NCBI RefSeq assembly: GCF_001874645.1
Contig: NZ_CP017886.1
Coordinates: 5,683,499-5,747,498, forward strand
Reading direction: 5' to 3'
From: Pseudomonas frederiksbergensis
GTDB taxonomy: Bacteria > Pseudomonadota > Gammaproteobacteria > Pseudomonadales > Pseudomonadaceae
DNA: 64,000 nucleotides
Positions 32,257 to 46,827 of the stretch are shown here, piece by piece. The translations under genes and the position numbers were made by a program. Numbering within the stretch: position 1 is the stretch's first letter; each line of letters starts with the position of its first letter. Under the pieces are notes generated by a model that was not told the DNA's origin, searched no databases, and saw only the letters and a list, made by a program, of their open reading frames with translations.

Positions 32257-32371
32257 CTTTCGCATAATATCGATGACGTTATGGTAGCTATGCCGTCGAG
32301 ATCGACGAATTTAGCGCCGGGATAATGGCGAAGCCCCGGCGCTGAATTTATCCATAACGTCCATTATGCGA
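32257..32371. other. Left prophage attachment site (attL) with foldback hairpin
   Basis: The XerC arm CTTTCGCATAA (32257-32267) is followed by a phage centre TATCGA and a poor XerD arm TGACGTTATGG (6 of 11 matches to the dif arm). The same strand holds complements further on: TCGCATAAT (32260-32268) pairs with ATTATGCGA (32363-32371), and ACGTTATGG (32276-32284) pairs with CCATAACGT (32352-32360). They leave a 7-nt against 2-nt internal loop between the arms. Inner hairpins fill the loop, notably AGCGCCGGG (32313-32321). This is the layout of a single-stranded attP hairpin as in CTXphi. Confidence 0.8.
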
Positions 32372-32380
32372 GGCTCATGA

Positions 32381-32426
32381 CTTACTTACGTAAGGGGTGA
32401 CGTAAGTAAGTGATTACGTAAGTAAG
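32381..32426. promoter_or_regulatory. ACGTAAGTAAG repeat cluster (putative operator), copy 1
   Basis: ACGTAAGTAAG occurs directly at 32400-32410 and 32416-32426, and inverted (CTTACTTACGT) at 32381-32391. The cluster lies between the att hairpin and the HTH gene at 32519. It is the kind of array a repressor or Rep protein would bind. Confidence 0.55.
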
Positions 32427-32518
32427 GGTAGGTTGCTGCTGGTTTTTCATTTTCGCGTCCGCGAAAATTGACCCTATAACCTTCGGTTAAATGCTGTTTC
32501 TGCGCCCAGGTGGAATTG

Positions 32519-32812
32519 ATGACAGAGCAAGAAAGCTACGCCAGTGTCTGGGACGCAATATGCGATTCACCAGGTGAAGCGACCGTCATGAAGCTCAAGT
32601 CGGAGCTGCTGATGGTTTTGCAGACTCGCGTCAAAAGCTGCTCGGGCAAGGAAGAGGCGGCTGCTTTTCTTGGCATTACCAAGCCGCGGCTAACTGAGTT
32701 AGTCCAGGGCAAAATAGATCGTTTCACCCTTGAGCAGCTCGTCCAGTTGCTTGTAGCTGCCGGCCTGGACGTAGAAATCCAGGTCAAACCTCGACTGCCC
32801 GAAGGGCATTAG
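32519..32812 (+). CDS. XRE/HigA-like (HTH_37) regulator
   Basis: This is 97 residues from ATG 32519, with AGGTGG about 7 nt upstream; a GTG three codons earlier is also in frame. The HTH is KEEAAAFLGITKPRLTELVQGKIDRFTLEQLVQLL, typical of the HTH_37 antitoxin-like family, followed by a beta strand (DVEIQVKPR). Such proteins usually pair with a HigB toxin, but no toxin gene is adjacent, so here it may act as a phage regulator. Palindromes TTTTCAC-G-GTGAAAA (32823) and the ACGTAAGTAAG cluster flank it. Confidence 0.82.
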   Translation: MTEQESYASVWDAICDSPGEATVMKLKSELLMVLQTRVKSCSGKEEAAAFLGITKPRLTELVQGKIDRFTLEQLVQLLVAAGLDVEIQVKPRLPEGH

Positions 32813-32822
32813 GCGCCATGAT

Positions 32823-32837
32823 TTTTCACGGTGAAAA
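32823..32837. promoter_or_regulatory. TTTTCACGGTGAAAA palindrome, copy 1
   Basis: A 7-bp-arm palindrome lies just after the HTH gene. A near-identical palindrome (TTTTCACCGTGAAAA) occurs at 41458-41472 in the same unit, ahead of the other accessory operon, suggesting a shared binding protein. Confidence 0.5.
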
Positions 32838-32888
32838 CTCGATCTTTCCGCGCCGATACCCGGCAACGCCGGCCGATCTTCAGGCAAA

Positions 32889-32922
32889 GAAAAACCCCAG
32901 CGATCGCTAGACCACTGGGGTT
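32889..32922 (-). terminator. Terminator for the minus-strand accessory genes, copy 1
   Basis: AACCCCAG (32893-32900) pairs with CTGGGGTT (32915-32922). Read on the minus strand the stem is followed by a T-rich run (TTTTTCTTTG), so it ends transcription of the genes at 33012-34302 before they meet the HTH gene. Confidence 0.75.
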
Positions 32923-33011
32923 CCCTTCGCGGGTCGCGTTCCCAGAATCACGCACCTGGTACTTCGCGCCCTAATTACTGCTTTTGCTCTGTTGCGTGAC
33001 GCAACACGGTT

Positions 33012-33437
33012 TCATGATTCCGCTGATTCTTCATCCCAAGCGGTTACATATTCTTCCTTGTCAGCGATTTTCGCTGCTTGTGCGTAGTCTTCTTTGAACT
33101 CCGGATCGTCCAGCCACCCCGGTACCATTTGATCAGCGCTGTTGTTCCATCTGTGGTACATCGCGAGAAGGATTCTCTGGATGTCAGTCGCGTCCAGGGC
33201 AGTTTCTGCGGAGCTTACAAATTCGTCCTGCATCAGGGTCACAAGCATGTCTACCCGGCTTTTTTCTTGGGCCGCTTTCATCTTCTTGAACAAGGCCACG
33301 CTTGCTTCTGTCGTCTCTATTGTTTCCACCGTCTGCGAGTCCTCGTAGCGGGAAATATTGTTTCTGACCACACGCGCTTTTTTGGCTTTTTCCTTGGCTC
33401 TTTGAGCCCGTTTCGCTTGCTTCTGTGACGATGCCAT
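33012..33437 (-). CDS. Hypothetical phage protein, basic N-terminus
   Basis: This is 141 residues. The first 30 are strongly basic and helical (KQAKRAQRAKEKAKKARVVR); the rest is acidic and helical (ATDIQRILLAMYHRW, then a D/E-rich tail). No family is recognised and no membrane segment is seen. It is transcribed with the repressor, opposite to the phage structural operon, which is where filamentous phages often keep host-interaction or immunity genes. Confidence 0.7.
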   Translation of the reverse strand: MASSQKQAKRAQRAKEKAKKARVVRNNISRYEDSQTVETIETTEASVALFKKMKAAQEKSRVDMLVTLMQDEFVSSAETALDATDIQRILLAMYHRWNNSADQMVPGWLDDPEFKEDYAQAAKIADKEEYVTAWDEESAES

Positions 33438-33500
33438 GGGTTTTTCTTACCTAGAAGGTGCCGCGATTGTCGTCAAATAGTCGTGGTATTGACCATGTCA

Positions 33501-33815
33501 TTACGTTTTATAGATCCGCTTGAACCAGGTGCGCTCACGAAAAAAACGTCTGCAATTTTTGAAGGAAAACCACCAACCTAGAAGCGTGGTAGCTCCGCAG
33601 ACGATCCATAAGACTGTGCTGTTTGTGATGGAGAGCAGGTCATGAAACAGCTTTCCTACCAAGAAGCCCGCTACGACCGAAAGCACTGTCAGCGTTATAG
33701 CGATAAAAGGAGGCGTGCCGTAGCTAATCTCTGCGTGGCAGCCTCGGCATACGCGGGCTCCCCATGGGACATTGTTCATGCAATGCGGACATGACAGATT
33801 TCTATCCGAACTCAC
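33501..33815 (-). CDS. Zinc-ribbon, two-helix membrane protein
   Basis: This is 104 residues. The N-terminus has two CxxC pairs (LSCPHCMNNV and RVCRGCHAEI) that form a zinc ribbon. Two hydrophobic helices follow (FIAITLTVLSVVAGFLVGKLF and TVLWIVCGATTLLGWWFSF), then a basic tail. It should sit in the inner membrane with the ribbon in the cytoplasm. It is not a known virion protein. Its place next to the repressor on the minus strand suggests an accessory role such as superinfection exclusion, but that is only inferred. Confidence 0.75.
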   Translation of the reverse strand: MSSDRNLSCPHCMNNVPWGARVCRGCHAEISYGTPPFIAITLTVLSVVAGFLVGKLFHDLLSITNSTVLWIVCGATTLLGWWFSFKNCRRFFRERTWFKRIYKT

Positions 33816-33872
33816 GTTTCACTCCTTTGACCTGGTGTCGGCACTTTTTGGAATTGGTTTTGGTTGAAGCGG

Positions 33873-33896
33873 GTGGGGGTGCTGTTACACCCCCAC
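33873..33896. repeat. Hairpin between repressor and zinc-ribbon gene, copy 1
   Basis: GTGGGGGTG pairs with CACCCCCAC (33873-33896). It lies after the repressor stop on the minus strand but has no T tail there, so it may be an mRNA stabiliser or weak terminator. Confidence 0.45.
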
Positions 33897-33945
33897 TTTA
33901 GTACGGAATCCCGTATTTCCAGCATCCATGAATGACTGGCTTTTT

Positions 33946-34302
33946 CTACCTCAAGGCTTCCTGTTCGTATCCGAAAAGCACACCTTTTAGGGCAATTTTT
34001 GCCTGATGCCGAATCTCTGGCGGCAGTGCCTCAAATCGCTTCAGGATAGGAACCATGTCTTGGGAAACCAACATTTCAGACGGGTCGAGCAGTAGTTCGT
34101 CCGTCGTGGTTCCAAGCACATGTGCAAGGCTTACAACCTTGTCCGCAGATGGCATTCCACGACCTGCCTCGTAGGACGTGTAACTCGATTTACTAACGCC
34201 TGCAGCCTCCCAAACCGCTTGTTGCGTTAAGCCCTTCGCCTCTCGGTAGCGCTTAAGATTTGCACCAATGGTCACGGCTCTGTCACCTGAGTGGTTGTTC
34301 AT
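33946..34302 (-). CDS. Phage repressor (XRE-family HTH)
   Basis: I take ATG 34302 (MNNHSGDRAVTIGANLKR, 118 residues), with AGGATAGGT upstream; the frame is open to 34371 but that part overlaps the operator palindrome. The Cro/CI-type HTH is IGANLKRYREAKGLTQQAVWEAAGVSKSSYTSYEAGRGMP, followed by a dimerisation tail. It is divergent from the Rep gene, and the 130-bp gap holds two palindromes, GTACCGATATATCGGTAC and CTGTATT-GG-AATACAG, that look like its operators. It probably keeps replication genes silent in the lysogen. Confidence 0.85.
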   Translation of the reverse strand: MNNHSGDRAVTIGANLKRYREAKGLTQQAVWEAAGVSKSSYTSYEAGRGMPSADKVVSLAHVLGTTTDELLLDPSEMLVSQDMVPILKRFEALPPEIRHQAKIALKGVLFGYEQEALR

Positions 34303-34334
34303 GTGACCTATCCTATTCGCTGGATACTCGTACA

Positions 34335-34352
34335 GTACCGATATATCGGTAC
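34335..34352. promoter_or_regulatory. 18-bp palindromic operator between repressor and rep, copy 1
   Basis: GTACCGATATATCGGTAC is a perfect palindrome lying 33 bp from the repressor start and 83 bp from the Rep start. It fits an operator bound by a dimeric repressor. Confidence 0.65.
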
Positions 34353-34400
34353 ATTTATGCTTGCATTTCACAATTACAAGGTCTCATAATCCTGCCAGTT

Positions 34401-34416
34401 CTGTATTGGAATACAG
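34401..34416. promoter_or_regulatory. Second operator-like palindrome before rep, copy 1
   Basis: CTGTATT-GG-AATACAG (7-bp arms) ends 18 bp before the Rep start, close to where the Rep ribosome-binding site lies. Binding here would block rep expression. Confidence 0.55.
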
Positions 34417-34434
34417 ATATTGACAGGTAATGGC

Positions 34435-35568
34435 ATGTTCATCGACTGGCTCAAGGTTTCGCAGGAATTCGAGGAGGACCTTCCCGTCATCTCGGATACC
34501 GCGTTCGCTGCGATTGACACCTTGACTGGTGAGGTCATGAGCACTCGTTATCGTGCTGTTAAACATGAGGGTAGCCATAGTTCTCGGATCCATATTCAGA
34601 TCCAGGGCCGCAAGGTGACTGTTGATGGCAATCCTTCCAGGCTGAATCGGCATGACAATCTCTGGGGCTTTGAAACGGTTGAGCAGTGCATCACCGTTTA
34701 CAACGAACTTCTCGCTGAGTACGGCTTGCCCCCGTTTACGAAATGCACGCGCTTCGAGATTCGCCAAGGCGAGTCAGGGGCAAAAAGCTCTCATCTCTGG
34801 GCCGATGGTTGCTGCATCCATCGCATTGACCTGACCACGAACATATCGGTGGGGAAGGGCAATGAGACCGCTTATTTGCGTGGTCTCGCGAGTCAACGAA
34901 TTGGACACTCGATAGGCCGACTGTTTCCAAATGGCCGATCTGTTGATTGGACAACATCAGGAAGCGGGAAGGGCGCACGCCTCCAGTACAGAAAGGCTTA
35001 TGACAAGTCGTTTGAAATACTGGACAAGCATCTTCCGAAAGTTAAAAAAGCATTCGGGGAAGCATCCCCAGAGTTTAAGTATGCTCAGGACATTTATAAC
35101 TATGCCGCAGAAACAGGCATTGTCCGTTTAGAGCAAGAGCTTAAAAGTGAATATCTAAGCCGTGAAAAGCTATGTTTCTGGGGCCTCTTTGATGAAGGCA
35201 AATATCAAACTCTACACAATGAGTTTTTGAGCGTAGACCAACGCCTGAAGGTGACAAAGATGGATATTGCCAGCATTTCGCAACAGCTTGTGCTAGAGAA
35301 TATTGTGGATTCCACAAAGGCAGCTAATACGACAGCGTGGTATGCCCATCTTTGGATGACCGGGCAAGAACTAGACTTTACGAAAAATCAGGTCAGGGTT
35401 CATGCGGCACGCCTTAACCGTATTGGTATTAATATTCGCAATGCATGCGACCTTAAAACCTTTAGTACCGTATTCATTCGAGAAATGCGGGAGATTAATC
35501 CCGTTAAAGGAATTGCCCCTCCAACCTGGTACAAGCGGCCTAATCACTTGCAGCGGGTTGCAGCATGA
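34435..35568 (+). CDS. Filamentous-phage replication initiator (pII/CRI/RstA-like)
   Basis: This is 377 residues from ATG 34435, with AGGT about 8 nt upstream. The N-terminus MFIDWLKVSQEF is typical of the Phage_CRI/gpII family, in which the protein nicks the plus strand to start rolling-circle replication. Other conserved-looking parts are SRIHIQIQGRKVTVDGNPSR, KCTRFEIRQ and ARLQYRKAYDKS; the tyrosine of the last is a candidate nicking residue. It opens the plus-strand operon and overlaps the next gene by 4 bp (ATGA). Confidence 0.87.
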   Translation: MFIDWLKVSQEFEEDLPVISDTAFAAIDTLTGEVMSTRYRAVKHEGSHSSRIHIQIQGRKVTVDGNPSRLNRHDNLWGFETVEQCITVYNELLAEYGLPPFTKCTRFEIRQGESGAKSSHLWADGCCIHRIDLTTNISVGKGNETAYLRGLASQRIGHSIGRLFPNGRSVDWTTSGSGKGARLQYRKAYDKSFEILDKHLPKVKKAFGEASPEFKYAQDIYNYAAETGIVRLEQELKSEYLSREKLCFWGLFDEGKYQTLHNEFLSVDQRLKVTKMDIASISQQLVLENIVDSTKAANTTAWYAHLWMTGQELDFTKNQVRVHAARLNRIGINIRNACDLKTFSTVFIREMREINPVKGIAPPTWYKRPNHLQRVAA

Positions 35569-35798
35569 GAACTGTAAGTCTTCAAGGCATCCAGCTTACA
35601 AGCGGGCAACGGCGCCGATTGGCTGAACAGCAGCAAGTTCGTACTTCTTTTATCAATCCTGTTCTTGCTCAGCAGGTCGAGCAAACGCTTAAGGCTGTTG
35701 AGGCACGGAAAGAGCAGGGCGTTAAGCCTGAGCGTATTTGGTTTGTAGAGCGTCAAGAAATAGGAACAACCTGTGTTGCCGAATGGATGGGTTTCTAA
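35565..35798 (+). CDS. Small phage protein
   Basis: This is 77 residues, soluble, rich in Q and R (SGQRRRLAEQQQVRTSF), overlapping the Rep stop and the next start (TAATG). It is not recognised. Tight coupling in the replication module suggests a role in replication control. Confidence 0.7.
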   Translation: MRTVSLQGIQLTSGQRRRLAEQQQVRTSFINPVLAQQVEQTLKAVEARKEQGVKPERIWFVERQEIGTTCVAEWMGF

Positions 35799-36052
35799 TG
35801 GATAAGAACCAGTTTCAAGTTTTGCGTTGGAATGTCGAGTCTGACATTCGCAATCACGTTACTGATGAAGCACTAATTAAAAGCATAGCTAACGATGTTA
35901 TGCGAACTATTCTGACTGACTTCGCGACACAAGCCGTGACTCGGCAACGCAATCACCGACAGTTTTTAACTTTCAGGCGCAATCCTGAAACCACAGCGCC
36001 CAGTTGGGCCTATCGCAAGCCGGGCATAAGCTCCCGACTTCCAACATTGTAA
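35798..36052 (+). CDS. Small phage protein
   Basis: This is 84 residues from the ATG overlapping the previous stop. It is amphipathic and helical (DEALIKSIANDVMRTILTDF) with a basic, proline-containing C-terminus. No family is recognised. It lies directly upstream of the ssDNA-binding protein. Confidence 0.7.
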   Translation: MDKNQFQVLRWNVESDIRNHVTDEALIKSIANDVMRTILTDFATQAVTRQRNHRQFLTFRRNPETTAPSWAYRKPGISSRLPTL

Positions 36053-36065
36053 TGAGGGCAATACT

Positions 36066-36359
36066 ATGTCGAATGTAATTCTTGTTGAGGTTACCGGTGT
36101 TAATCGTACTGGCACGGCTTCTAAGTCTGGAAAGCCTTACTGCATGTATGAAGCATATGTTCATCTTCCAAATGTTCCGTATCCTCAGAAAGCTTCCTTT
36201 TATGCCGAGCTGCCAAGCCAAGTCCCGCAGCCTGGAACCTATGAGTGCGATGTTATCGCAGATGTTCGCGATGGCCGTTTAACTTTTGATGTTGATCCGC
36301 GCCAAGCACGACGAGTCAATTCTGTTTCCTCACAAGCGCCTGTATCTAAAGCCGGATAA
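36066..36359 (+). CDS. ssDNA-binding protein (gpV-like)
   Basis: This 97-residue beta-rich protein resembles filamentous-phage DNA-binding proteins that coat plus strands and switch replication to packaging. The N-terminal strand SNVILVEVTG, the KPYCMYEAYVHLP segment and VPQPGTYECDVIADV fit the family, which has aromatic residues that stack on bases. Position between Rep and coat genes matches the usual order. Confidence 0.82.
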   Translation: MSNVILVEVTGVNRTGTASKSGKPYCMYEAYVHLPNVPYPQKASFYAELPSQVPQPGTYECDVIADVRDGRLTFDVDPRQARRVNSVSSQAPVSKAG

Positions 36360-36365
36360 ATAAAC

Positions 36366-36602
36366 ATGGCAGTTTGTACGCTTCTAGATGCAAACGGCTT
36401 TGTGACGTCCACTAAAGAAACCATATGTTCTGCATTTGTCATGCTTACGCCTTCTGAGTTTGCTTCCGTTCAAGCCGCTGCTGCGCCGTTCGATTACACC
36501 CAGGCATTTGCCTTTTGGTCGTTTGCGTTCGGTACAACGCTGCTTTTTTGGCTGATATCTCGCGGTGTGGGCACCGTCTTGAACCTCATACGTCATCGGT
36601 GA
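36366..36602 (+). CDS. Small membrane protein, probable minor virion component
   Basis: This is 78 residues with a C-terminal membrane helix (FAFWSFAFGTTLLFWLISRGV) and a basic end (NLIRHR), the charge pattern of filamentous-phage coat proteins. It lies between the ssDNA-binding protein and the major coat gene. It may be an end-cap protein, but no family is recognised. Confidence 0.75.
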   Translation: MAVCTLLDANGFVTSTKETICSAFVMLTPSEFASVQAAAAPFDYTQAFAFWSFAFGTTLLFWLISRGVGTVLNLIRHR

Positions 36603-36650
36603 GGAAAGCCGTACCGGCCGGATGCCGGTTATTAAGAAAGGGTAACAACC

Positions 36651-36875
36651 ATGAAACTGAAACAACTGCTGTCCGCTTCCGTTGTAACTGCCGGTGTCGT
36701 TGCTGCTACTGCGTCGCAAGCCGCCTCCGCTGCTATTGATTTGACCACCATTACCGGTGCTTTCACTGCTGCTGATGTTGTCGCAGGCATTCTGGCTATT
36801 GGTGCAGTTCTGGCGACTATTTACGCGACCTCCAAAGCCGCTTCGATGGTTCTGGGCATGATTCGCGGTCGCTGA
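36651..36875 (+). CDS. Major coat protein (gpVIII-like)
   Basis: This 74-residue preprotein has a signal peptide (KQLLSASVVTAGVVAATASQA-type, cleaved near residues 24-27). The mature part of about 48 residues has an acidic N-terminus, a membrane helix (ADVVAGILAIGAVLATIYA) and a basic C-terminus (GMIRGR) that would face the DNA. This is the standard inovirus major coat design. A strong terminator follows at 36889, as expected for a highly transcribed gene. Confidence 0.9.
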   Translation: MKLKQLLSASVVTAGVVAATASQAASAAIDLTTITGAFTAADVVAGILAIGAVLATIYATSKAASMVLGMIRGR

Positions 36876-36888
36876 TCGTAACTAGCGA

Positions 36889-36919
36889 CGGGGCATTGCT
36901 TCGGCGTGCCCTTTTTTTT
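36889..36919 (+). terminator. Rho-independent terminator after the major coat gene, copy 1
   Basis: GGGCA and TGCCC pair around a GCTTCGGC loop, followed by nine Ts. It limits read-through into the minor coat and assembly genes. Confidence 0.88.
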
Positions 36920-36990
36920 CGCCTTCAGGAAGTTGAAAACAGTGAACACGCCTAGTCGAAAACGCCTTTTTATCGTCGGAGTTGATTCCC

Positions 36991-37086
36991 ATGACCACCA
37001 ATGACGCTTGGTATTTGCTCATGTTCGTCTTCGGCCTTATGTGTGCCTGGGCGGTAGTTACTGGCTTTGCGGATAACGACCTATGA
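36991..37086 (+). CDS. 31-residue minor coat protein (gpVII/gpIX-like)
   Basis: A very short gene begins MTTNDAWYLLMFVFGLMC and ends ADNDL. It is almost one hydrophobic helix, as are the end proteins pVII and pIX of filamentous phages. Its stop overlaps the start of the adsorption gene (ATGA), which argues it is translated. Confidence 0.72.
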   Translation: MTTNDAWYLLMFVFGLMCAWAVVTGFADNDL

Positions 37087-38471
37087 AAAATTTCTTCCTA
37101 AAGTTCGCGGTAATCAAGATTTTCGTTTTTGCTCTGGTATTCACGCCGTTTTTTGCGTCTGCCGCTTCCGTTGCTGCCTATTCGCCGAAAGTTGGTAATA
37201 CCGTTGCGGGTGTGATTCAGCAAAAGTCGATTGCTCGCGGTTTTGCTGCCAACGATCCAAAATACGGGGCAACCGTTGCAGCTATTGGTACTGCCCTTAC
37301 GATTGTTGCGTCTGCTGCCGTCGGTGGTGCAACTGCACCTTTCTGGTTAACCCTTTTAGTTGGCAGTGCCGTAACTTTCGCCGTCTCTCTGGCTGCGGAC
37401 TCTTTGTACAAATGGGCATTTAACAGTGACGGTTCTATCGCTGTGACTGGCTCGCAACCAAATGATGGTTATTCCGACCCAATTGGCACGTATACCCCTC
37501 AACCAACTGTTATTGGTGGCCCTTATCTTTCTATCGGTGGAAGTACTTGTGCTTCGGGTTCTCCCGCCACGGTTGCACTTTGCGTCTATGGCGATCCTCT
37601 CTATAACAATGGAAAGACCAACGTTCACGTAAATAGCTGCGTGCAACAAGGCCCAGGCTTTTTGTGTAACGTCGGCTGGACTGATATCAATGGTCAGCCA
37701 GGCAGTGAGTCGATGAGTGTTTTTGGTTACACGTCGGGCTCTATGAGTGCCTGTCCTACTAATGCTTATTACAAGAACGGTGGCTGTGTAACCGCTTCTG
37801 GAAGCCCCTCACCTAATGCCGGTCAGTCGCAAGACAAGCCGAATGCTTCACCGGCTCAGGCGTTGGCATCGGTTCCCGCGGCTGATCTGTCGAAGCCTGC
37901 AAACCCTGCTTTGATGGCTGACACCATCAACAAAGCTTGGCAGAAAGCGGCTATGGATCCGATGTATCAGGGAGTTCCTTATTCCTACTCCGATCCCGTA
38001 ACGGCTGCTGACGTTGCTGCATGGCAGGCCTCTAACCCAGCCTCGTACCCAACGGTGCAGGATTTGCTGTCGAAGGCGGTCAACCCGGCGACCGGTTCGG
38101 TTCCAGTTACCGCACCTGGAACAGGGACTGTTACCCCACCAGTGACCAATCCGGGAACGAACCCGACGACGATTAACGTTACCGTCGATCTCGGGCCAAA
38201 TCCGGGTGTTCCGACGCCGGGTTTAGAAGCAACTCCAACTGGCTCCCAAATTTTGGCGCCGTTGTTGAACATGATGCCGGGGCTTAAAGCGTTCCAAGTT
38301 CCGAACCATTCAGCGGAATGTCCGAAGCCTCAATTCGATTTGCCGGTTATCAATACGCATGTCGTGATGGATGCCCAGTGCAAGTTGTTTGAAGACGTTC
38401 GGCCTCAACTTTTTAGCGGTGCGTTTTTGGCGTGGGTTATTGCCGCGCTCTTTATCGTTCTTTCGGCGTGA
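37083..38471 (+). CDS. Adsorption / attachment protein (gpIII-like)
   Basis: This is 462 residues. A signal peptide (IFVFALVFTPFFASAA) precedes an exported region. A cysteine-bearing domain (about 160-250, with pairs such as GGSTCASGS/VALCVYG and NSCVQQGPGFLCNVG) could be disulfide-bonded. A low-complexity linker follows (PVTAPGTGTVTPPVTNPGTN). The C-terminus ends in one membrane anchor (SGAFLAWVIAALFIVLSA). This is the order of pIII-type receptor-binding proteins. The gene lies between the small coat gene and gpVI, where gene III belongs. Confidence 0.85.
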   Translation: MKNFFLKFAVIKIFVFALVFTPFFASAASVAAYSPKVGNTVAGVIQQKSIARGFAANDPKYGATVAAIGTALTIVASAAVGGATAPFWLTLLVGSAVTFAVSLAADSLYKWAFNSDGSIAVTGSQPNDGYSDPIGTYTPQPTVIGGPYLSIGGSTCASGSPATVALCVYGDPLYNNGKTNVHVNSCVQQGPGFLCNVGWTDINGQPGSESMSVFGYTSGSMSACPTNAYYKNGGCVTASGSPSPNAGQSQDKPNASPAQALASVPAADLSKPANPALMADTINKAWQKAAMDPMYQGVPYSYSDPVTAADVAAWQASNPASYPTVQDLLSKAVNPATGSVPVTAPGTGTVTPPVTNPGTNPTTINVTVDLGPNPGVPTPGLEATPTGSQILAPLLNMMPGLKAFQVPNHSAECPKPQFDLPVINTHVVMDAQCKLFEDVRPQLFSGAFLAWVIAALFIVLSA

Positions 38472-38479
38472 GGTGAACC

Positions 38480-38767
38480 ATGTTTGCTATTTTACTTTCC
38501 GCTGTTAACACGTTGCTCGCGTTCCTGGTGCGAGGGGTATTAATCAAGTTTGTCGTTTTCACGGCCTTGTATTTCATTGTGTCCGAGCTGGTTTCTGCCA
38601 TGGTGTCATTGCTGCCTAACGGCAGCTCTTTGACTTCGGCCTTCACTGGTATTAGTTCGGCTACTTGGTATTTCCTTGATCTCTTCGCAGCTTCGCAAGG
38701 CATTCCGCTTATCATTGCCGCGCTTGTAACTCGGTTCATCATCCGCCGTATTCCGGTAATTGGCTGA
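38480..38767 (+). CDS. Minor coat protein gpVI-like (DUF2523)
   Basis: This is 95 residues with three hydrophobic segments (LLSAVNTLLAFLVRGVLI, FVVFTALYFIVSELVSAMVS and GIPLIIAALVTRFIIRRI). That is the DUF2523 pattern of inovirus gpVI, which caps the adsorption end of the virion with pIII. It overlaps the Zot start by 1 bp. Confidence 0.83.
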   Translation: MFAILLSAVNTLLAFLVRGVLIKFVVFTALYFIVSELVSAMVSLLPNGSSLTSAFTGISSATWYFLDLFAASQGIPLIIAALVTRFIIRRIPVIG

Positions 38768-39822
38768 TGCCTATTAATGCCTATACCGGGCTGATGGGCT
38801 CGGGCAAAAGCTTCGAGTGTGTCGTCTCCGTTATCGTCCCAGCGGTCGCTAAAGGGCGCCGGGTTGTGACAAACGTCGACGGTATCGACTCCGATGCCAT
38901 CCGTGCATACATCAACGAGAAACAGGGCATTGCCCTGGAGAAACTCGGCGAAGTGGTGCACTGCCAAAACGAAGACGTTTTCAAGGCTGATTTTTTGCCA
39001 CACGGCCAGCCGGTGGACACGTTCTGCCAGCCCGGTGATTTGATCTGCATCGACGAAGCTTGGCGATTCTGGGGTTCTGATTCGAAGATCGGCACCGAAC
39101 ACCGGATTTTCTTCCGCGAGCATCGTCACTATGCCCACGCTGAAACCGGTGTGACCTGTGACCTGGTACTTATGGTTCAGGACATTTCCGACCTTCATCG
39201 CATCTTGAAAACGGTGGTCGAGCTGTCGTTTCGTACCACCAAAATTAAGTCGCTGGGTTTGAATAAAATCTACCGAGTTGAGATGTGGGAAGGCTGGAAA
39301 CAGACGGCCAAAGCCCGTGTTGACGTGATGAATAAAAAGTATGACCCGGAGATTTTCCCGCTCTATTCGTCGTACTCAGGCGGTCACGGCAAAGAAGTCC
39401 AGGTGGATGACCGACAGAACATCCTGAAAAACCCAAAGGTCTGGTTTTTCCTGTTCATGATTGTTTTCGGCGGTGTCGGGTCGGTCTGGGGTGTCCTGCA
39501 CTTCTTCAACCGTGGTGCTGCTCCCGCTACGGTCGTTCAGCAAGCCGCAAGCGCCGCGCAACCAGCGCCCAATATTGTGCCTTCTGCTCCTTCTCAGGTG
39601 CTTTCCACTGAATGGCGTATTGCTGGGGAAATTGTCGTTGATGGTCAGCGACAAGTCGTCCTGGTGAACACTGACGGCGTGATCCGTTACGAGCATCCGA
39701 GCAACTTCCAGAATTCAGGCCGCGTTATGACTGGTCAACTCGACGGCCAGCGCGTCAGCACCTTCAGCGGTGGCAAGCCTCCGGCCGCGTCCTCCGTTCC
39801 TCTCCCTGGTAAAAATCCATGA
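38767..39822 (+). CDS. Zot-family assembly ATPase (gpI-like)
   Basis: This 351-residue inner-membrane motor extrudes virions. The cytoplasmic domain has Walker A GLMGSGKS (residues 8-15) and Walker B LICIDEAWRFWG (about 94). A single membrane helix (WFFLFMIVFGGVGSVWGVLHF, about 225-245) follows, then a periplasmic domain with a proline/alanine linker that contacts the secretin. The name comes from the Vibrio CTXphi homologue; toxin activity is not implied. It overlaps the secretin start by 4 bp. Confidence 0.92.
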   Translation: MPINAYTGLMGSGKSFECVVSVIVPAVAKGRRVVTNVDGIDSDAIRAYINEKQGIALEKLGEVVHCQNEDVFKADFLPHGQPVDTFCQPGDLICIDEAWRFWGSDSKIGTEHRIFFREHRHYAHAETGVTCDLVLMVQDISDLHRILKTVVELSFRTTKIKSLGLNKIYRVEMWEGWKQTAKARVDVMNKKYDPEIFPLYSSYSGGHGKEVQVDDRQNILKNPKVWFFLFMIVFGGVGSVWGVLHFFNRGAAPATVVQQAASAAQPAPNIVPSAPSQVLSTEWRIAGEIVVDGQRQVVLVNTDGVIRYEHPSNFQNSGRVMTGQLDGQRVSTFSGGKPPAASSVPLPGKNP

Positions 39823-41039
39823 TCCGGTTCTTGTTATTGTGCCTGTTGTCATTTTCCGCGATTGCCGCCGATAAGCAGGCGCCGTATCAGTTCGATCTGA
39901 CCGGCTTGCCGATTGGCCAAGTGGCTCAAATTTTCTATGCCGATGCCTTCCGTAAGCCCTACATCCTGTCGCCGGAAGTGCTCGAGGACGGTCGGCCTGT
40001 GTCGTTGCGTGTTCAGGGCTCCGCCGTCCAGGTGCGCGCCGATTTCGTCCGTCTTCTTGATGCCTTTGGTTACGCTGTTACGCAGCGCAACGGCGTCGAT
40101 CACGTCATGCCGAAAAAAGAGCCAGCACCGCCTCCTGGTGAATACTTTCTGTACCGACCGCTTTACCGCGATGTGGCCTATCTGTCCGAAACGCTCGCGC
40201 CATTGTTCCAGGGAAAATTTGGTGTTGATCGCGGGATTTCTGTTCCTGGTCAAACTCCGATGACCGGATCTGCTCCGCGTGGATCGGCTGCCAGCCTGTT
40301 AAATCGTGATGCTGATCAGCTGGTTTTTGTCGGTACAAAGGCTGAAATTGCCAACTTGCGTTCGTTGTTGCCCCAGGTTGATATCGAGATGGGCGAAGTG
40401 ATGTTGCGTAGTGCAGTTTATGAGGTTCAAACCGGCGACCGTGACGGTTCCGCTTTTTCCCTGGCTGCCTCGTTGCTCAAGGGTAAAGTATCGATCAACT
40501 TGGCCGGTAATCCGCTCGATAACTCCGTCAGCATTAGTACGGGCGACTTCAATGCCGTCCTGTCGGCTCTGTCGTCCGATTCGCGTTTTAAGGTGGTCAG
40601 TCAGCCGAGTTTGCGTGTGCGATCAGGTAAAGAAGCGACGATAAACGTCGGTGCAGAAGTGCCGGTGCTGGGTGCCTTGTCGTATCCGCAAGGTGCTGGC
40701 CAAGCTGTCCAGTCGGTCGAATATCGTAACTCTGGGGTGATTTTTACCATCACCCCTCAGGTGCGCCAGGCTGTTGTCGATCTGACCATTGATCAGCAGC
40801 TTTCCAACTTCGTGCAGACCACTACCGGCGTGAATGGAAGCCCGACTTTGACCAAGCGGCAATTGACTACAAACGTGCAGATGCGCAACGCCGAGGTGGT
40901 CATTTTGGGTGGATTGACCGAGGAAAAAACCTCAGAAACGCAAACTGGCCTATCTTTCCTGCCGTCTATTTTCCGTTCCAAGGTTACTGAGTCGAGCAAA
41001 TCGGAAATCTTGCTGGTTATCCAGATGATGAGGATGTGA
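39819..41039 (+). CDS. Phage-encoded secretin (gpIV-like outer-membrane channel)
   Basis: This is 406 residues with a signal peptide (LLLCLLSFSAIAA). N0/N1 periplasmic domains follow (PYQFDLTGLPIGQVAQIF, then VSLRVQGSAVQVRADFVRLLD), then the secretin core with VPVLGALSYPQGAGQ, IFTITPQVRQAVVDLTIDQQ and VILGGLTEEKTSETQTGLSFLP. Having its own secretin means the phage need not borrow a host type II or IV channel, unlike CTXphi. It ends the assembly operon. Confidence 0.9.
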   Translation: MIRFLLLCLLSFSAIAADKQAPYQFDLTGLPIGQVAQIFYADAFRKPYILSPEVLEDGRPVSLRVQGSAVQVRADFVRLLDAFGYAVTQRNGVDHVMPKKEPAPPPGEYFLYRPLYRDVAYLSETLAPLFQGKFGVDRGISVPGQTPMTGSAPRGSAASLLNRDADQLVFVGTKAEIANLRSLLPQVDIEMGEVMLRSAVYEVQTGDRDGSAFSLAASLLKGKVSINLAGNPLDNSVSISTGDFNAVLSALSSDSRFKVVSQPSLRVRSGKEATINVGAEVPVLGALSYPQGAGQAVQSVEYRNSGVIFTITPQVRQAVVDLTIDQQLSNFVQTTTGVNGSPTLTKRQLTTNVQMRNAEVVILGGLTEEKTSETQTGLSFLPSIFRSKVTESSKSEILLVIQMMRM

Positions 41040-41067
41040 GGGCAGGGTGCTTCAATCAGTCAGAACC

Positions 41068-41105
41068 CGTAGGAGCGGGCATGCCCGCAGCGCGTCAGCG
41101 CGAGG
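41068..41105. repeat. REP-like palindrome, copy 1
   Basis: GTAGGAGCGGGCATGCCCGC contains a perfect palindrome (41075-41088) and resembles Pseudomonas REP units (GTGGGAGCGGGCTTGCCCGC). It lies 30 bp after the secretin stop and could terminate or stabilise the long operon transcript. Confidence 0.7.
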
Positions 41106-41129
41106 ACTTGACCACTCCTATGGGTACAT

Positions 41130-41372
41130 TCATAGAGTAAATAGGGGAGGAGGGATGCGTTGACGGCGCTGTTCCGCGTCTGGCTTGCGCATCACCTCTT
41201 TTAGGCGCTGGGAAGGACCTTCAAGGTCTGACGGCGCCGCGCCGCTAACAGCAAGCATTAACGCATCGCGGCGTTTCTTTTTGCCGTCCATGATTTCAGC
41301 GAAACTACTTTCTGACGGAATATGCTGGCTCATCATCGCTGCCTTTGGCTGTGCGTCATTGGATGCTAGCAC
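41130..41372 (-). CDS. Small hypothetical phage protein
   Basis: This is 80 residues, or 66 if started at MSQHIPSESSFAEIMDG. It is basic and helical with a proline-rich tail (RQRIPPPLF). No family is recognised. It lies opposite to its neighbours between the REP-like palindrome and the end module. Confidence 0.55.
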   Translation of the reverse strand: MLASNDAQPKAAMMSQHIPSESSFAEIMDGKKKRRDALMLAVSGAAPSDLEGPSQRLKEVMRKPDAEQRRQRIPPPLFTL

Positions 41373-41457
41373 GGGCTTGATTCGCCGTAGTTCGGGCTCG
41401 ACACCTTGTCGATTTAGCAGCTAAATTTCAGACCGTTCCTTCCGGCGTTCAACCGGC

Positions 41458-41472
41458 TTTTCACCGTGAAAA
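41458..41472. promoter_or_regulatory. TTTTCACCGTGAAAA palindrome, copy 1
   Basis: This is the partner of the palindrome at 32823. It lies 86 bp before the gene at 41544 and next to the 16-bp inverted repeat at 41486. Confidence 0.5.
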
Positions 41473-41485
41473 TCTGAGTATCTTG

Positions 41486-41523
41486 TTATAACTAAACTAA
41501 AGAACTATTTAGTTTAGTTATAA
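41486..41523. promoter_or_regulatory. 16-bp-arm inverted repeat (operator), copy 1
   Basis: TTATAACTAAACTAAA and its exact complement TTTAGTTTAGTTATAA flank GAACTA. The right arm overlaps a TATAAT-like -10 box, 20 bp before the gene at 41544, so binding would block its promoter. Confidence 0.7.
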
Positions 41524-41543
41524 TGCAATGGAATATGTAGAGT

Positions 41544-41939
41544 ATGAATATGCAGGGAACTGAAAAGCAGAAAGCGCTGGCCACCTTGATTAAGGCGGAA
41601 GCTGTTCAGTCAATCGCTGCTGCGGGGCTTTCGGCTCCCCATTTCCGCGATGCATGTGCTGCCTTGTCGGAAGCGGTCGAGGCTATTACAGATTCATCCT
41701 GGATCATTTCCAACCGCTACAACCTTGGACTTAAAACGGGCTTCATTTATGGCACGGATCGGCCCACGATCACCGCTCAGGAAGTCTCATACCATCAGTT
41801 GTTACGCAACGAGCATTGGCGAAATCCCTATCTGCGCAAAGGAACCTCCAGCTTCACCAAGCAACATCAGGCCGCGTTAAAAGCCATGTTTCAGGAAGCA
41901 TGGCGACTTGAGCGGATTTCTCCCGAGGTGATCCAATGA
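41544..41939 (+). CDS. Hypothetical phage accessory protein
   Basis: This is 131 residues, soluble and mostly helical (ALATLIKAEAVQSIAAAGLS, then ALKAMFQEAWRLERISPEV). No family is recognised. It has its own palindromic promoter and overlaps the antidote-like gene by 4 bp (ATGA), the layout of a two-gene module such as a toxin-antitoxin pair, though no toxin fold is visible. Confidence 0.68.
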   Translation: MNMQGTEKQKALATLIKAEAVQSIAAAGLSAPHFRDACAALSEAVEAITDSSWIISNRYNLGLKTGFIYGTDRPTITAQEVSYHQLLRNEHWRNPYLRKGTSSFTKQHQAALKAMFQEAWRLERISPEVIQ

Positions 41940-42121
41940 CAGAGCCAATTTATGATTATGACCCAGCTGACTCGCTGGTTGATTCAGAGGCCGTAGCTGT
42001 CTTTTTGGCTGATGCTCACGACACGGGTGACGCGGCTTTCATTGCCGAAGCGATGGCCGTTGTTGCACGTGCCAAGTTTCGTATCGATGCAGATGACGAA
42101 GGACAGAAGCCATCGTTCTGA
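41936..42121 (+). CDS. Short addiction-module-antidote-like protein
   Basis: This is 61 residues. YDPADSLVDSEAVAVFLADA followed by GDAAFIAEAMAVVARAK matches the N-terminal half of the HI1420-type antidote family (about 95-100 residues). The C-terminal helix-turn-helix normally found after ARAKG is missing and is replaced by a short acidic tail. It may be a shortened, dimerisation-only version. It lies 75 bp before the att junction. Confidence 0.72.
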   Translation: MTEPIYDYDPADSLVDSEAVAVFLADAHDTGDAAFIAEAMAVVARAKFRIDADDEGQKPSF

Positions 42122-42195
42122 AGCCGTGTTGCTACTAGCAACACCTGATCACCTGGTGAAAAGGACTGAGCAGAGCCCCACAAGGAGAATCCTTA

Positions 42196-42310
42196 GGTTC
42201 GCATAATATCGATGACGTTATGGTAGCTATGCCGTCGAGATCGACGAATTTAGCGCCGGGATAATGGCGAAGCCCCGGCGCTGAATTTATCCATAACGTC
42301 CATTATGCGA
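42196..42310. other. Phage-phage attachment junction with foldback hairpin
   Basis: This has the same hairpin as at 32257, but with the phage XerC arm GGTTCGCATAA (42196-42206) instead of the chromosomal CTTTCGCATAA. It is the attP sequence as it would be in the free phage. Confidence 0.8.
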
Positions 42311-42319
42311 GGCTCATGA

Positions 42320-42365
42320 CTTACTTACGTAAGGGGTGACGTAAGTAAGTGATTACGTAAGTAAG
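42320..42365. promoter_or_regulatory. ACGTAAGTAAG repeat cluster, copy 2
   Basis: Two direct and one inverted ACGTAAGTAAG, as at 32381-32426. Confidence 0.55.
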
Positions 42366-42457
42366 GGTAGGTTGCTGCTGGTTTTTCATTTTCGCGTCCG
42401 CGAAAATTGACCCTATAACCTTCGGTTAAATGCTGTTTCTGCGCCCAGGTGGAATTG

Positions 42458-42751
42458 ATGACAGAGCAAGAAAGCTACGCCAGTGTCTGGGACGCAATAT
42501 GCGATTCACCAGGTGAAGCGACCGTCATGAAGCTCAAGTCGGAGCTGCTGATGGTTTTGCAGACTCGCGTCAAAAGCTGCTCGGGCAAGGAAGAGGCGGC
42601 TGCTTTTCTTGGCATTACCAAGCCGCGGCTAACTGAGTTAGTCCAGGGCAAAATAGATCGTTTCACCCTTGAGCAGCTCGTCCAGTTGCTTGTAGCTGCC
42701 GGCCTGGACGTAGAAATCCAGGTCAAACCTCGACTGCCCGAAGGGCATTAG
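42458..42751 (+). CDS. XRE/HigA-like (HTH_37) regulator, copy 2
   Basis: Identical in translation to the gene at 32519. In this copy it lies downstream of the antidote-like gene of copy 1 across the attP junction, so both antitoxin-like genes meet in the circular phage too. Confidence 0.82.
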   Translation: MTEQESYASVWDAICDSPGEATVMKLKSELLMVLQTRVKSCSGKEEAAAFLGITKPRLTELVQGKIDRFTLEQLVQLLVAAGLDVEIQVKPRLPEGH

Positions 42752-42761
42752 GCGCCATGAT

Positions 42762-42776
42762 TTTTCACGGTGAAAA
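42762..42776. promoter_or_regulatory. TTTTCACGGTGAAAA palindrome, copy 2
   Basis: Same as 32823-32837. Confidence 0.5.
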
Positions 42777-42827
42777 CTCGATCTTTCCGCGCCGATACCC
42801 GGCAACGCCGGCCGATCTTCAGGCAAA

Positions 42828-42861
42828 GAAAAACCCCAGCGATCGCTAGACCACTGGGGTT
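42828..42861 (-). terminator. Terminator for the minus-strand accessory genes, copy 2
   Basis: Same AACCCCAG/CTGGGGTT stem and minus-strand T run as at 32889. Confidence 0.75.
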
Positions 42862-42950
42862 CCCTTCGCGGGTCGCGTTCCCAGAATCACGCACCTGGTA
42901 CTTCGCGCCCTAATTACTGCTTTTGCTCTGTTGCGTGACGCAACACGGTT

Positions 42951-43376
42951 TCATGATTCCGCTGATTCTTCATCCCAAGCGGTTACATATTCTTCCTTGT
43001 CAGCGATTTTCGCTGCTTGTGCGTAGTCTTCTTTGAACTCCGGATCGTCCAGCCACCCCGGTACCATTTGATCAGCGCTGTTGTTCCATCTGTGGTACAT
43101 CGCGAGAAGGATTCTCTGGATGTCAGTCGCGTCCAGGGCAGTTTCTGCGGAGCTTACAAATTCGTCCTGCATCAGGGTCACAAGCATGTCTACCCGGCTT
43201 TTTTCTTGGGCCGCTTTCATCTTCTTGAACAAGGCCACGCTTGCTTCTGTCGTCTCTATTGTTTCCACCGTCTGCGAGTCCTCGTAGCGGGAAATATTGT
43301 TTCTGACCACACGCGCTTTTTTGGCTTTTTCCTTGGCTCTTTGAGCCCGTTTCGCTTGCTTCTGTGACGATGCCAT
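42951..43376 (-). CDS. Hypothetical phage protein, basic N-terminus, copy 2
   Basis: Identical in translation to 33012-33437: a lysine/arginine-rich helical start and an acidic tail, family not recognised. Confidence 0.7.
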   Translation of the reverse strand: MASSQKQAKRAQRAKEKAKKARVVRNNISRYEDSQTVETIETTEASVALFKKMKAAQEKSRVDMLVTLMQDEFVSSAETALDATDIQRILLAMYHRWNNSADQMVPGWLDDPEFKEDYAQAAKIADKEEYVTAWDEESAES

Positions 43377-43439
43377 GGGTTTTTCTTACCTAGAAGGTGC
43401 CGCGATTGTCGTCAAATAGTCGTGGTATTGACCATGTCA

Positions 43440-43754
43440 TTACGTTTTATAGATCCGCTTGAACCAGGTGCGCTCACGAAAAAAACGTCTGCAATTTTTG
43501 AAGGAAAACCACCAACCTAGAAGCGTGGTAGCTCCGCAGACGATCCATAAGACTGTGCTGTTTGTGATGGAGAGCAGGTCATGAAACAGCTTTCCTACCA
43601 AGAAGCCCGCTACGACCGAAAGCACTGTCAGCGTTATAGCGATAAAAGGAGGCGTGCCGTAGCTAATCTCTGCGTGGCAGCCTCGGCATACGCGGGCTCC
43701 CCATGGGACATTGTTCATGCAATGCGGACATGACAGATTTCTATCCGAACTCAC
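43440..43754 (-). CDS. Zinc-ribbon, two-helix membrane protein, copy 2
   Basis: Identical in translation to 33501-33815: two CxxC pairs, then two membrane helices. Confidence 0.75.
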   Translation of the reverse strand: MSSDRNLSCPHCMNNVPWGARVCRGCHAEISYGTPPFIAITLTVLSVVAGFLVGKLFHDLLSITNSTVLWIVCGATTLLGWWFSFKNCRRFFRERTWFKRIYKT

Positions 43755-43811
43755 GTTTCACTCCTTTGACCTGGTGTCGGCACTTTTTGGAATTGGTTTT
43801 GGTTGAAGCGG

Positions 43812-43835
43812 GTGGGGGTGCTGTTACACCCCCAC
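43812..43835. repeat. Hairpin between repressor and zinc-ribbon gene, copy 2
   Basis: Same GTGGGGGTG/CACCCCCAC stem as at 33873. Confidence 0.45.
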
Positions 43836-43884
43836 TTTAGTACGGAATCCCGTATTTCCAGCATCCATGAATGACTGGCTTTTT

Positions 43885-44241
43885 CTACCTCAAGGCTTCC
43901 TGTTCGTATCCGAAAAGCACACCTTTTAGGGCAATTTTTGCCTGATGCCGAATCTCTGGCGGCAGTGCCTCAAATCGCTTCAGGATAGGAACCATGTCTT
44001 GGGAAACCAACATTTCAGACGGGTCGAGCAGTAGTTCGTCCGTCGTGGTTCCAAGCACATGTGCAAGGCTTACAACCTTGTCCGCAGATGGCATTCCACG
44101 ACCTGCCTCGTAGGACGTGTAACTCGATTTACTAACGCCTGCAGCCTCCCAAACCGCTTGTTGCGTTAAGCCCTTCGCCTCTCGGTAGCGCTTAAGATTT
44201 GCACCAATGGTCACGGCTCTGTCACCTGAGTGGTTGTTCAT
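43885..44241 (-). CDS. Phage repressor (XRE-family HTH), copy 2
   Basis: Identical in translation to 33946-34302. Two repressor copies in the tandem array would raise the immunity dose. Confidence 0.85.
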   Translation of the reverse strand: MNNHSGDRAVTIGANLKRYREAKGLTQQAVWEAAGVSKSSYTSYEAGRGMPSADKVVSLAHVLGTTTDELLLDPSEMLVSQDMVPILKRFEALPPEIRHQAKIALKGVLFGYEQEALR

Positions 44242-44273
44242 GTGACCTATCCTATTCGCTGGATACTCGTACA

Positions 44274-44291
44274 GTACCGATATATCGGTAC
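44274..44291. promoter_or_regulatory. 18-bp palindromic operator, copy 2
   Basis: GTACCGATATATCGGTAC, as at 34335. Confidence 0.65.
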
Positions 44292-44339
44292 ATTTATGCT
44301 TGCATTTCACAATTACAAGGTCTCATAATCCTGCCAGTT

Positions 44340-44355
44340 CTGTATTGGAATACAG
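44340..44355. promoter_or_regulatory. Second operator-like palindrome before rep, copy 2
   Basis: CTGTATT-GG-AATACAG, as at 34401. Confidence 0.55.
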
Positions 44356-44373
44356 ATATTGACAGGTAATGGC

Positions 44374-45507
44374 ATGTTCATCGACTGGCTCAAGGTTTCG
44401 CAGGAATTCGAGGAGGACCTTCCCGTCATCTCGGATACCGCGTTCGCTGCGATTGACACCTTGACTGGTGAGGTCATGAGCACTCGTTATCGTGCTGTTA
44501 AACATGAGGGTAGCCATAGTTCTCGGATCCATATTCAGATCCAGGGCCGCAAGGTGACTGTTGATGGCAATCCTTCCAGGCTGAATCGGCATGACAATCT
44601 CTGGGGCTTTGAAACGGTTGAGCAGTGCATCACCGTTTACAACGAACTTCTCGCTGAGTACGGCTTGCCCCCGTTTACGAAATGCACGCGCTTCGAGATT
44701 CGCCAAGGCGAGTCAGGGGCAAAAAGCTCTCATCTCTGGGCCGATGGTTGCTGCATCCATCGCATTGACCTGACCACGAACATATCGGTGGGGAAGGGCA
44801 ATGAGACCGCTTATTTGCGTGGTCTCGCGAGTCAACGAATTGGACACTCGATAGGCCGACTGTTTCCAAATGGCCGATCTGTTGATTGGACAACATCAGG
44901 AAGCGGGAAGGGCGCACGCCTCCAGTACAGAAAGGCTTATGACAAGTCGTTTGAAATACTGGACAAGCATCTTCCGAAAGTTAAAAAAGCATTCGGGGAA
45001 GCATCCCCAGAGTTTAAGTATGCTCAGGACATTTATAACTATGCCGCAGAAACAGGCATTGTCCGTTTAGAGCAAGAGCTTAAAAGTGAATATCTAAGCC
45101 GTGAAAAGCTATGTTTCTGGGGCCTCTTTGATGAAGGCAAATATCAAACTCTACACAATGAGTTTTTGAGCGTAGACCAACGCCTGAAGGTGACAAAGAT
45201 GGATATTGCCAGCATTTCGCAACAGCTTGTGCTAGAGAATATTGTGGATTCCACAAAGGCAGCTAATACGACAGCGTGGTATGCCCATCTTTGGATGACC
45301 GGGCAAGAACTAGACTTTACGAAAAATCAGGTCAGGGTTCATGCGGCACGCCTTAACCGTATTGGTATTAATATTCGCAATGCATGCGACCTTAAAACCT
45401 TTAGTACCGTATTCATTCGAGAAATGCGGGAGATTAATCCCGTTAAAGGAATTGCCCCTCCAACCTGGTACAAGCGGCCTAATCACTTGCAGCGGGTTGC
45501 AGCATGA
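44374..45507 (+). CDS. Filamentous-phage replication initiator (pII/CRI/RstA-like), copy 2
   Basis: Identical in translation to 34435-35568. In a head-to-tail array, nicking at the origin in each copy would release a single-copy circle by rolling-circle replication, as known for tandem CTXphi. Confidence 0.87.
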   Translation: MFIDWLKVSQEFEEDLPVISDTAFAAIDTLTGEVMSTRYRAVKHEGSHSSRIHIQIQGRKVTVDGNPSRLNRHDNLWGFETVEQCITVYNELLAEYGLPPFTKCTRFEIRQGESGAKSSHLWADGCCIHRIDLTTNISVGKGNETAYLRGLASQRIGHSIGRLFPNGRSVDWTTSGSGKGARLQYRKAYDKSFEILDKHLPKVKKAFGEASPEFKYAQDIYNYAAETGIVRLEQELKSEYLSREKLCFWGLFDEGKYQTLHNEFLSVDQRLKVTKMDIASISQQLVLENIVDSTKAANTTAWYAHLWMTGQELDFTKNQVRVHAARLNRIGINIRNACDLKTFSTVFIREMREINPVKGIAPPTWYKRPNHLQRVAA

Positions 45508-45737
45508 GAACTGTAAGTCTTCAAGGCATCCAGCTTACAAGCGGGCAACGGCGCCGATTGGCTGAACAGCAGCAAGTTCGTACTTCTTTTATCAATCCTG
45601 TTCTTGCTCAGCAGGTCGAGCAAACGCTTAAGGCTGTTGAGGCACGGAAAGAGCAGGGCGTTAAGCCTGAGCGTATTTGGTTTGTAGAGCGTCAAGAAAT
45701 AGGAACAACCTGTGTTGCCGAATGGATGGGTTTCTAA
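45504..45737 (+). CDS. Small phage protein, copy 2
   Basis: Identical in translation to 35565-35798; coupled to rep and the next gene by overlaps. Confidence 0.7.
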   Translation: MRTVSLQGIQLTSGQRRRLAEQQQVRTSFINPVLAQQVEQTLKAVEARKEQGVKPERIWFVERQEIGTTCVAEWMGF

Positions 45738-45991: not shown

Positions 45992-46004
45992 TGAGGGCAA
46001 TACT

Positions 46005-46298: not shown

Positions 46299-46304
46299 AT
46301 AAAC

Positions 46305-46541: not shown

Positions 46542-46589
46542 GGAAAGCCGTACCGGCCGGATGCCGGTTATTAAGAAAGGGTAACAACC

Positions 46590-46814: not shown

Positions 46815-46827
46815 TCGTAACTAGCGA

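Follow-up and report, generated by a model that had tools for sequence, protein, structure and literature searches.

A hairpin resembling the folded attP(+) of CTXphi in a dif-integrated inovirus prophage of Pseudomonas frederiksbergensis

How does a filamentous phage that lacks an integrase enter the chromosome at dif? This question is raised by the 64,000 nucleotides (hereafter, the window) that form the end of the 5.75-Mb contig G000:C1 of P. frederiksbergensis. The original prediction proposed that a foldback at 32257..32371 rebuilds a Xer site on single-stranded phage DNA, as happens in CTXphi. Our analysis leads to a similar reading: the hairpin is very probably a CTXphi-type folded attP(+) of a dif-integrating inovirus, used by the host XerC and XerD recombinases.

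The prophage array and dif

The window carries two prophage copies on the plus strand, arranged head-to-tail (32259..42197 and 42198..52136). The 9,939-bp units are identical (period 9939, 0 mismatches), and the named phage genes lie on the plus strand. Pfam identified a G2P replication protein (34420-35568), an inovirus single-stranded DNA-binding protein (36066-36359), Zot (38767-39822) and a secretin (39819-41039), all on the plus strand; given these genes and the two identical copies, the array is a tandem inovirus prophage. An intact dif (GGTTCGCATAA TGTATA TTATGTTAAAC; 52135..52162, plus strand), with 0 mismatches to the searched core, closes the array on the right. The second copy, its identical attP hairpin (42199-42310) and the terminal dif had not been part of the original prediction. 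That the phage lacks an integrase, as had been claimed, agrees with the Pfam scan, in which none of the 17 phage ORFs contains an integrase domain; two Phage_integrase ORFs lie just outside the phage (29396-32161). As in CTXphi, the prophage thus sits at dif, one dif (judged by sequence) is regenerated and an integrase of its own is absent. The host genome encodes one XerC (C1:3152957) and one XerD (C1:1745024), both above curated cut-offs.

The junctions of the array are informative. The internal junction consists of the attP1 XerC arm followed by the attP1 centre, and the last junction of the attP1 XerC arm followed by the dif centre, as expected of an exchange on the XerC side. The chromosomal junction falls at the XerC arm of attP1, though it is attP2 that, as duplex, has the canonical 6-nt spacer. 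The bases outside the XerC core are CTTT in the outermost copy and GGTT in both the inner copy and dif, a difference expected if the outer bases derive from the host side.

Other features were noted around the array. Three consecutive ORFs on the minus strand (27118-32161) end about 100 bp from attL and look like a recombinase trio adjoining dif; two of them (402 and 515 aa) contain Phage_integrase domains and the third (766 aa) has no Pfam match. Units resembling TTACTTACGTAAG, repeated in either orientation (32377-32428) and perhaps operator sites, separate the hairpin from an HTH_37 gene (32510-32812). A gene pair (41544-42121, plus strand) lies directly upstream of attP; its second gene is weakly antidote-like (addiction module, PF21716, below the cut-off), and its first has a 95% identical copy before dif in genome G058, the Zot of which is only 30% identical. 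The start of the same contig (L034:1-16000) repeats the contig-end prophage region at ~99.8%; the minor differences break up some of the tblastn matches. The repeat features a 1.19-kb insertion, missing from the window, located 15 bp after dif and containing a 327-aa transposase-like frame that is presumably IS5-like. Either the two contig ends overlap or the culture was mixed.

The attP foldback and its Xer sites

The first hairpin copy, on the attL side (32260..32371, plus strand), is built from nested exact arms. The outer arm TCGCATAAT (32260-32268) pairs with ATTATGCGA (32363-32371), and the inner arm (G)ACGTTATGG (32275-32284) with CCATAACGT(C) (32352-32361). The predicted bulge sizes (7 and 2 nt) are correct for the arms as originally named and shrink to 6 and 1 nt when one extra G-C pair is counted. 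The strong inner hairpins expected in the loop are also present: sequence and fold reveal a small one (CGTCG-AGAT-CGACG, 32294..32307, plus strand) and a main one with a 14-bp stem (32308..32348, plus strand). When 32250-32380 was folded as DNA, both arms were paired at -33.1 kcal/mol (z -4.5; 0/200 shuffles as stable), so that a stable intrastrand hairpin joins the two sites, as in CTXphi. A scan for exact nested foldbacks of 9+10 nt, with arms 60-140 nt apart and bulges ≤10, found only two sites in the 64 kb, 32260-32371 and 42199-42310. No such foldback occurred in 200 simulated phage-sized sequences, in which relaxation to 8+8 nt yielded three. The foldback is real and not a product of chance. 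The minus strand folds equally well (-33.5, z -5.3), and folding alone therefore cannot choose the strand.

Placement of a sliding XerD consensus resolved two inverted dif-like sites. On the plus strand, attP1 (CGCATAA-TATCGATGACG-TTATGGTAGCT) comprises a XerC arm core in the outermost copy (CGCATAA, 32261..32267), an 11-nt central spacer (32268..32278) and a XerD arm matching dif at 8/11 positions (32279..32289). On the minus strand, attP2 (CGCATAA-TGGACG-TTATGGATAAA) comprises the same XerC core (32364..32370), a 6-nt spacer (32358..32363) and a XerD arm matching at 7/11 (32347..32357). The poor duplex XerD arm of 6/11 described earlier is correct at dif spacing, but it is not the best available, since TTATGGTAGCT sits 5 nt further in; a match of at least 8/11 is reached in 1.3% of random best-of-12 placements.

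This layout, with inverted dif-like sites ~90 nt apart in the plus strand, an extended attP1 centre and a short attP2 centre, is that of attP(+) in the Vibrio cholerae phage CTXphi. The comparison rests on published tables and text: CTXphi spacers measure 12 nt in attP1 and 7 nt in attP2, or 6 nt in one variant, in Table II of PMC3089051, and the text of PMC4246890 gives centres of 12 and 5-7 nt and describes neither site as suitable in duplex form. The substrate in CTXphi is the folded (+) strand. The two systems differ in host, in the CGCATAA-type arms and in the spacers (11 and 6 nt here). According to the text of PMC3089051, CTXphi specificity depends on the bases next to the XerC arm. At this position attP1 reads TAT, attP2 TGG and dif TGT. 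Consecutive spacer identity to dif extends over the first base only in attP1, versus three bases in CTXphi El Tor (PMC3089051), and over two bases (TG) in attP2. By the pairing rule set out in that paper, the attP1 spacer would be a weak stabiliser.

Relatives, covariation and strand polarity

BLAST found attP-like DNA in 8 of 298 genus genomes, the window's own included, and the hairpin is present in 15 of 23 viral contigs encoding a similar Rep. It is absent from the other eight; four of these end in terminal repeats and are probably complete, and the rest may be cut off before the hairpin. Megablast against phage records matched no more than 48 bp, in two records of P. aeruginosa phages, and the Rep query hit a single locus among named genomes, in Pseudomonas gregormendelii. 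Judged by identity, the hairpin is better conserved than neighbouring phage DNA. For instance, the hairpins of L011 and G388 are 97% and 92% identical to that of the window, versus 81% and 68% for the replication regions; in G058 the hairpin is 95% identical, 508 bp close to the opposite end are 87% identical and the replication region cannot be aligned.

Alignment A1 combined 24 hairpins, from the window, 8 genus genomes and 15 viral contigs, leaving out the degenerate G197 hairpin and the eight hairpin-less contigs. The attP1 spacer (7-13 nt) exceeds the attP2 spacer (6 nt in 19 hairpins, 7 in four and 8 in one) in all 24. The two stems covary, with 30 double-change cells versus 8.4±2.2 in shuffles, none of 500 of which reach that number. 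Pairs changed on both sides number 7, versus 4.5±1.1 in shuffles (12/500), and in the second stem (columns 21-30 with 109-118) two-sided changes affect 6 of 10 pairs. Sliding the partner by 1-3 columns lowers the paired cells from 93% to 22-46%. Further pair types do not rise above shuffles in A1 (12 versus 12.5), and the XerC stem, being almost invariant, is uninformative on covariation.

These hairpins bear on the most serious alternative, in which XerC would recombine double-stranded attP1 (CGCATAA-TATCGA-TGACGTTATGG) with dif, as in VGJphi, and the foldback would serve another role. An identical junction and orientation are predicted by this route, the window and eight other hairpins reach a XerD match of 6/11 with a 6-nt spacer, and published VGJ-type phages do use a single duplex site (texts of PMC3089051 and PMC4246890). 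However, the phage has two inverted sites instead of one, with a poor XerD arm at the canonical 6-nt spacing of the junction. Moreover, the match at that spacing falls to 1-4/11 in 15 of the 24 hairpins, while all 24 feature a match of 7-9/11 at longer spacing. Since the XerD arm is lost at 6 nt in these 15 hairpins, and since a duplex site leaves both the stem covariation and the polarity described below unexplained, we regard this route as unlikely.

The choice of strand was tested by bulge polarity. Inoviruses package their coding strand. Viral contigs were searched for XerC foldbacks symmetrically, and the coding strand was assigned from ORF length. At least 120 foldback stretches were found; 79 of the 80 listed (all but L028) were analysed, together with 13 of the 15 hairpin contigs (all but L025 and L028). 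Removal of one duplicate contig and eight contigs >16 kb left 83, each counted once. Among the matches listed, 53 of 53 contigs (32 clusters) with a stem score ≥11, a coding bias ≥0.7 and a length ≤16 kb have a longer bulge on the 5' than on the 3' arm, as read along the coding strand. When the score and bias thresholds were dropped, 69 of the 83 contigs ≤16 kb among these matches were longer in the 5' bulge, 13 in the 3' bulge, and one had equal bulges. MFE folding gives the expected polarity in five of the 13 (L167, L108, L116, L120 and L181), two (L149 and L033; bias 0.52 and 0.53) have an ambiguous coding strand, and in five (L114, L173, L115, L179 and L152) the second stem is weak, with scores of 1.4-7.5. 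L183 shows the opposite polarity, also by MFE. By coding-strand polarity, the hairpin is located on the packaged (+) strand, as in CTXphi.

R1, a covariance model describing the hairpin, matched 30 of 398 genus genomes, the window's own included, and 4 of 369 genomes of the class, again including its own; seven of the 30 supplied R1 sequences and match by construction. A dif is present within the fetched DNA of 23 of these 30 genomes, and in 22 of the 23 it shares the hairpin's strand and lies downstream. The exception is G129, in which dif is 16 kb away on the opposite strand. In the fetched DNA of the remaining seven (G338, G296, G214, G344, G178, G379 and G092) no dif was found, in some cases because the contig ends. 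Taken together, spacer asymmetry, covariation, coding-strand polarity, dif orientation and the attP1 junction favour the folded (+) strand over the duplex as the substrate, in line with the earlier claim that the folded form rebuilds a XerC/XerD site like that of CTXphi.

Hairpins away from a same-strand dif occur in five other genomes (G129, G296, G338, G344 and G214) and, at a second site, in the genome that contains the window. Around these six, a 53-aa stretch in G214 was all that tblastn with the window phage proteins matched, and Pfam assigned none of the neighbours scanned at the five sites other than G344 to an inovirus family. The same tblastn was empty at G041 as well, where hairpin and dif are 7 kb apart, which makes it a weak test that misses distant phages. 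The second site of the own genome (L092:17068-17176, equivalent to G000:C1:1581068-1581176) is a degenerate attP hairpin that is distant from dif and adjoins a gene for an S-type pyocin DNase. In the search for an empty site, the right flanks align over ~50 bp in G015, G007 and G002, and the left flanks of G015 and G007 do not align. No exact dif is found in the G002 comparison, and among the three genomes no uninterrupted ancestral site was found.

Integration route, loop motif and short elements at dif

In the route that we infer, the circular packaged (+) strand would enter the cell or arise by rolling-circle replication. By folding in the cell, attP1 and attP2 would pair into a XerC-XerD site with a bulged centre, 11 nt on the 5' arm and 6 nt on the 3' arm. 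Host XerC, the only recombinase to catalyse the reaction, with XerD assisting, would exchange one strand with dif immediately after CGCATAA, and host replication would then complete the process by converting the junction into an integrated duplex copy. The resulting order would be the host XerC arm and the phage at one end, and the phage XerC arm followed by the host centre and XerD arm at the other. The prophage would stay integrated because the duplex form cannot refold; dif would be regenerated downstream of it, where more copies could join head to tail.

Such a life cycle has parallels in other phages. CTXphi, as published, shares the (+)-strand hairpin, the regeneration of a functional dif, the tandem prophages and the absence of a phage integrase. 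In contrast to CTXphi, Pfam named no toxin family besides the assembly protein Zot in the 17 ORFs of this phage. CUS-1 and the Ypf phages are similar in having, in the text of PMC3089051, attP features for direct single-stranded DNA integration at dif; they differ in their enterobacterial hosts, and the likeness is one of published description and not of sequence. UPphi forms tandem prophages at dif via XerCD, and its repeats typically match the first fifteen bases of dif only. Its description differs, since the main text of PMC7307601 mentions a dif copy and contains neither "attP" nor "inverted", hence no foldback under those words. VGJphi and TLCphi are filamentous or satellite elements that likewise exploit XerC/XerD at dif. 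Unlike the present phage, VGJphi has a single duplex attP of 29 bp (PMC3089051 and PMC4246890, as far as their text describes it), and TLCphi a degenerate XerD arm and a dependence on XerD catalysis (text of PMC4246890). The Pf phages of P. aeruginosa are also filamentous Pseudomonas phages, but they use integrases of their own and are contrasted with dif phages in the text of PMC7549136 and PMC4863604; all 182 Pf prophages analysed in PMC7549136 carry an integrase and occupy tRNA, tmRNA or direct-repeat sites, whereas the present phage is at dif and no integrase was found in it. The main text of PMC6813254 does not mention XerC, attP or a dif site. In the parts of the open-licence literature searched, we found no Pseudomonas phage described as having a folded attP, and the phage is accordingly filed as a new CTX-type case with a Pseudomonas host.

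The apical loop of the main inner hairpin contains, at its 5' entry, the sequence GGATAAT (32320..32326, plus strand). The corresponding motif, GGANNAT, occurs in 30 of 49 non-redundant hairpins, compared with a shuffled mean of 1.31 and with 3 of 49 on the other strand; L135, which has an empty core, was scored as motif-less among the 49. The motif is missing from a group of hairpins that includes L167 and L151. GGANNAT is possibly a second protein-binding site.

Intergenic hairpins of inoviruses usually act as packaging signals or minus-strand origins, and the present hairpin could mainly have such a role, its likeness to dif being secondary. The conserved, strand-specific loop motif, which Xer binding does not explain, fits this idea. 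Against it, Xer arms are found on both hairpin arms with a fixed spacer asymmetry, 22 of 23 genomes show the element in a single orientation with dif downstream of it, and four probably complete relatives lack a XerC foldback, which thus seems dispensable for replication or packaging unless another hairpin substitutes for it. We consider a mainly packaging or origin function very improbable. Least credible of all is integration by the neighbouring tyrosine recombinases (29396-32161) instead of XerC/XerD, since these ORFs, although directly outside attL and in two cases equipped with Phage_integrase domains, are not part of the phage unit, and since the site is dif, where phage relatives reside in many genomes.

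The reading of the hairpin as a folded attP(+) can be tentatively extended. The hairpin may be a two-function single-stranded DNA module, in which the stem would provide the Xer site and the GGANNAT loop would bind a second (+)-strand factor of phage or host origin. As a cassette, it might be kept or exchanged among inoviruses, considering the 95% identity to the G058 element next to the 30% identity of Zot, and its relatives might be used by satellite-like dif elements of 1.4-2.4 kb that have no full replication gene.

Short elements of this kind, spanning 1.4-2.4 kb from the attP hairpin to dif, were observed in three genus genomes (L083:2821-5154, L089:2014-4443 and L094:15351-16869). They contain small ORFs, one of which resembles the C-terminal part of G2P (by Pfam in L083 and L094, by tblastn only in L089), and share a similar ORF of 111-121 aa (measured for L083 and L094, judged by eye for L089). 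These mini-elements may be satellites of dif-integrating inoviruses or remnants of such phages. A fourth short hairpin-dif interval, 1.7 kb long, is found in G266 and features a Zot-like ORF instead. An array of three hairpins at dif (L085:1597-19524) consists of a 3.9-kb unit with only a short G2P piece, followed by two 7.0-kb phages, and resembles a satellite beside its helper.

Direct single-strand Xer integration is discussed, in the open-licence literature as far as covered, only for cholera and enterobacterial phages. The R1 matches in 30 of the 398 sampled genus genomes and the presence of this architecture, among the matches listed, in dozens of short viral contigs suggest, together with the covariation of the arms and the steady strand polarity, that a folded attP is a common lysogeny route of integrase-less filamentous phages. 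The architecture is recognisable from sequence alone, and the natural variants with spacers of 7-13 nt offer material on the tolerance of XerC for a bulged centre.
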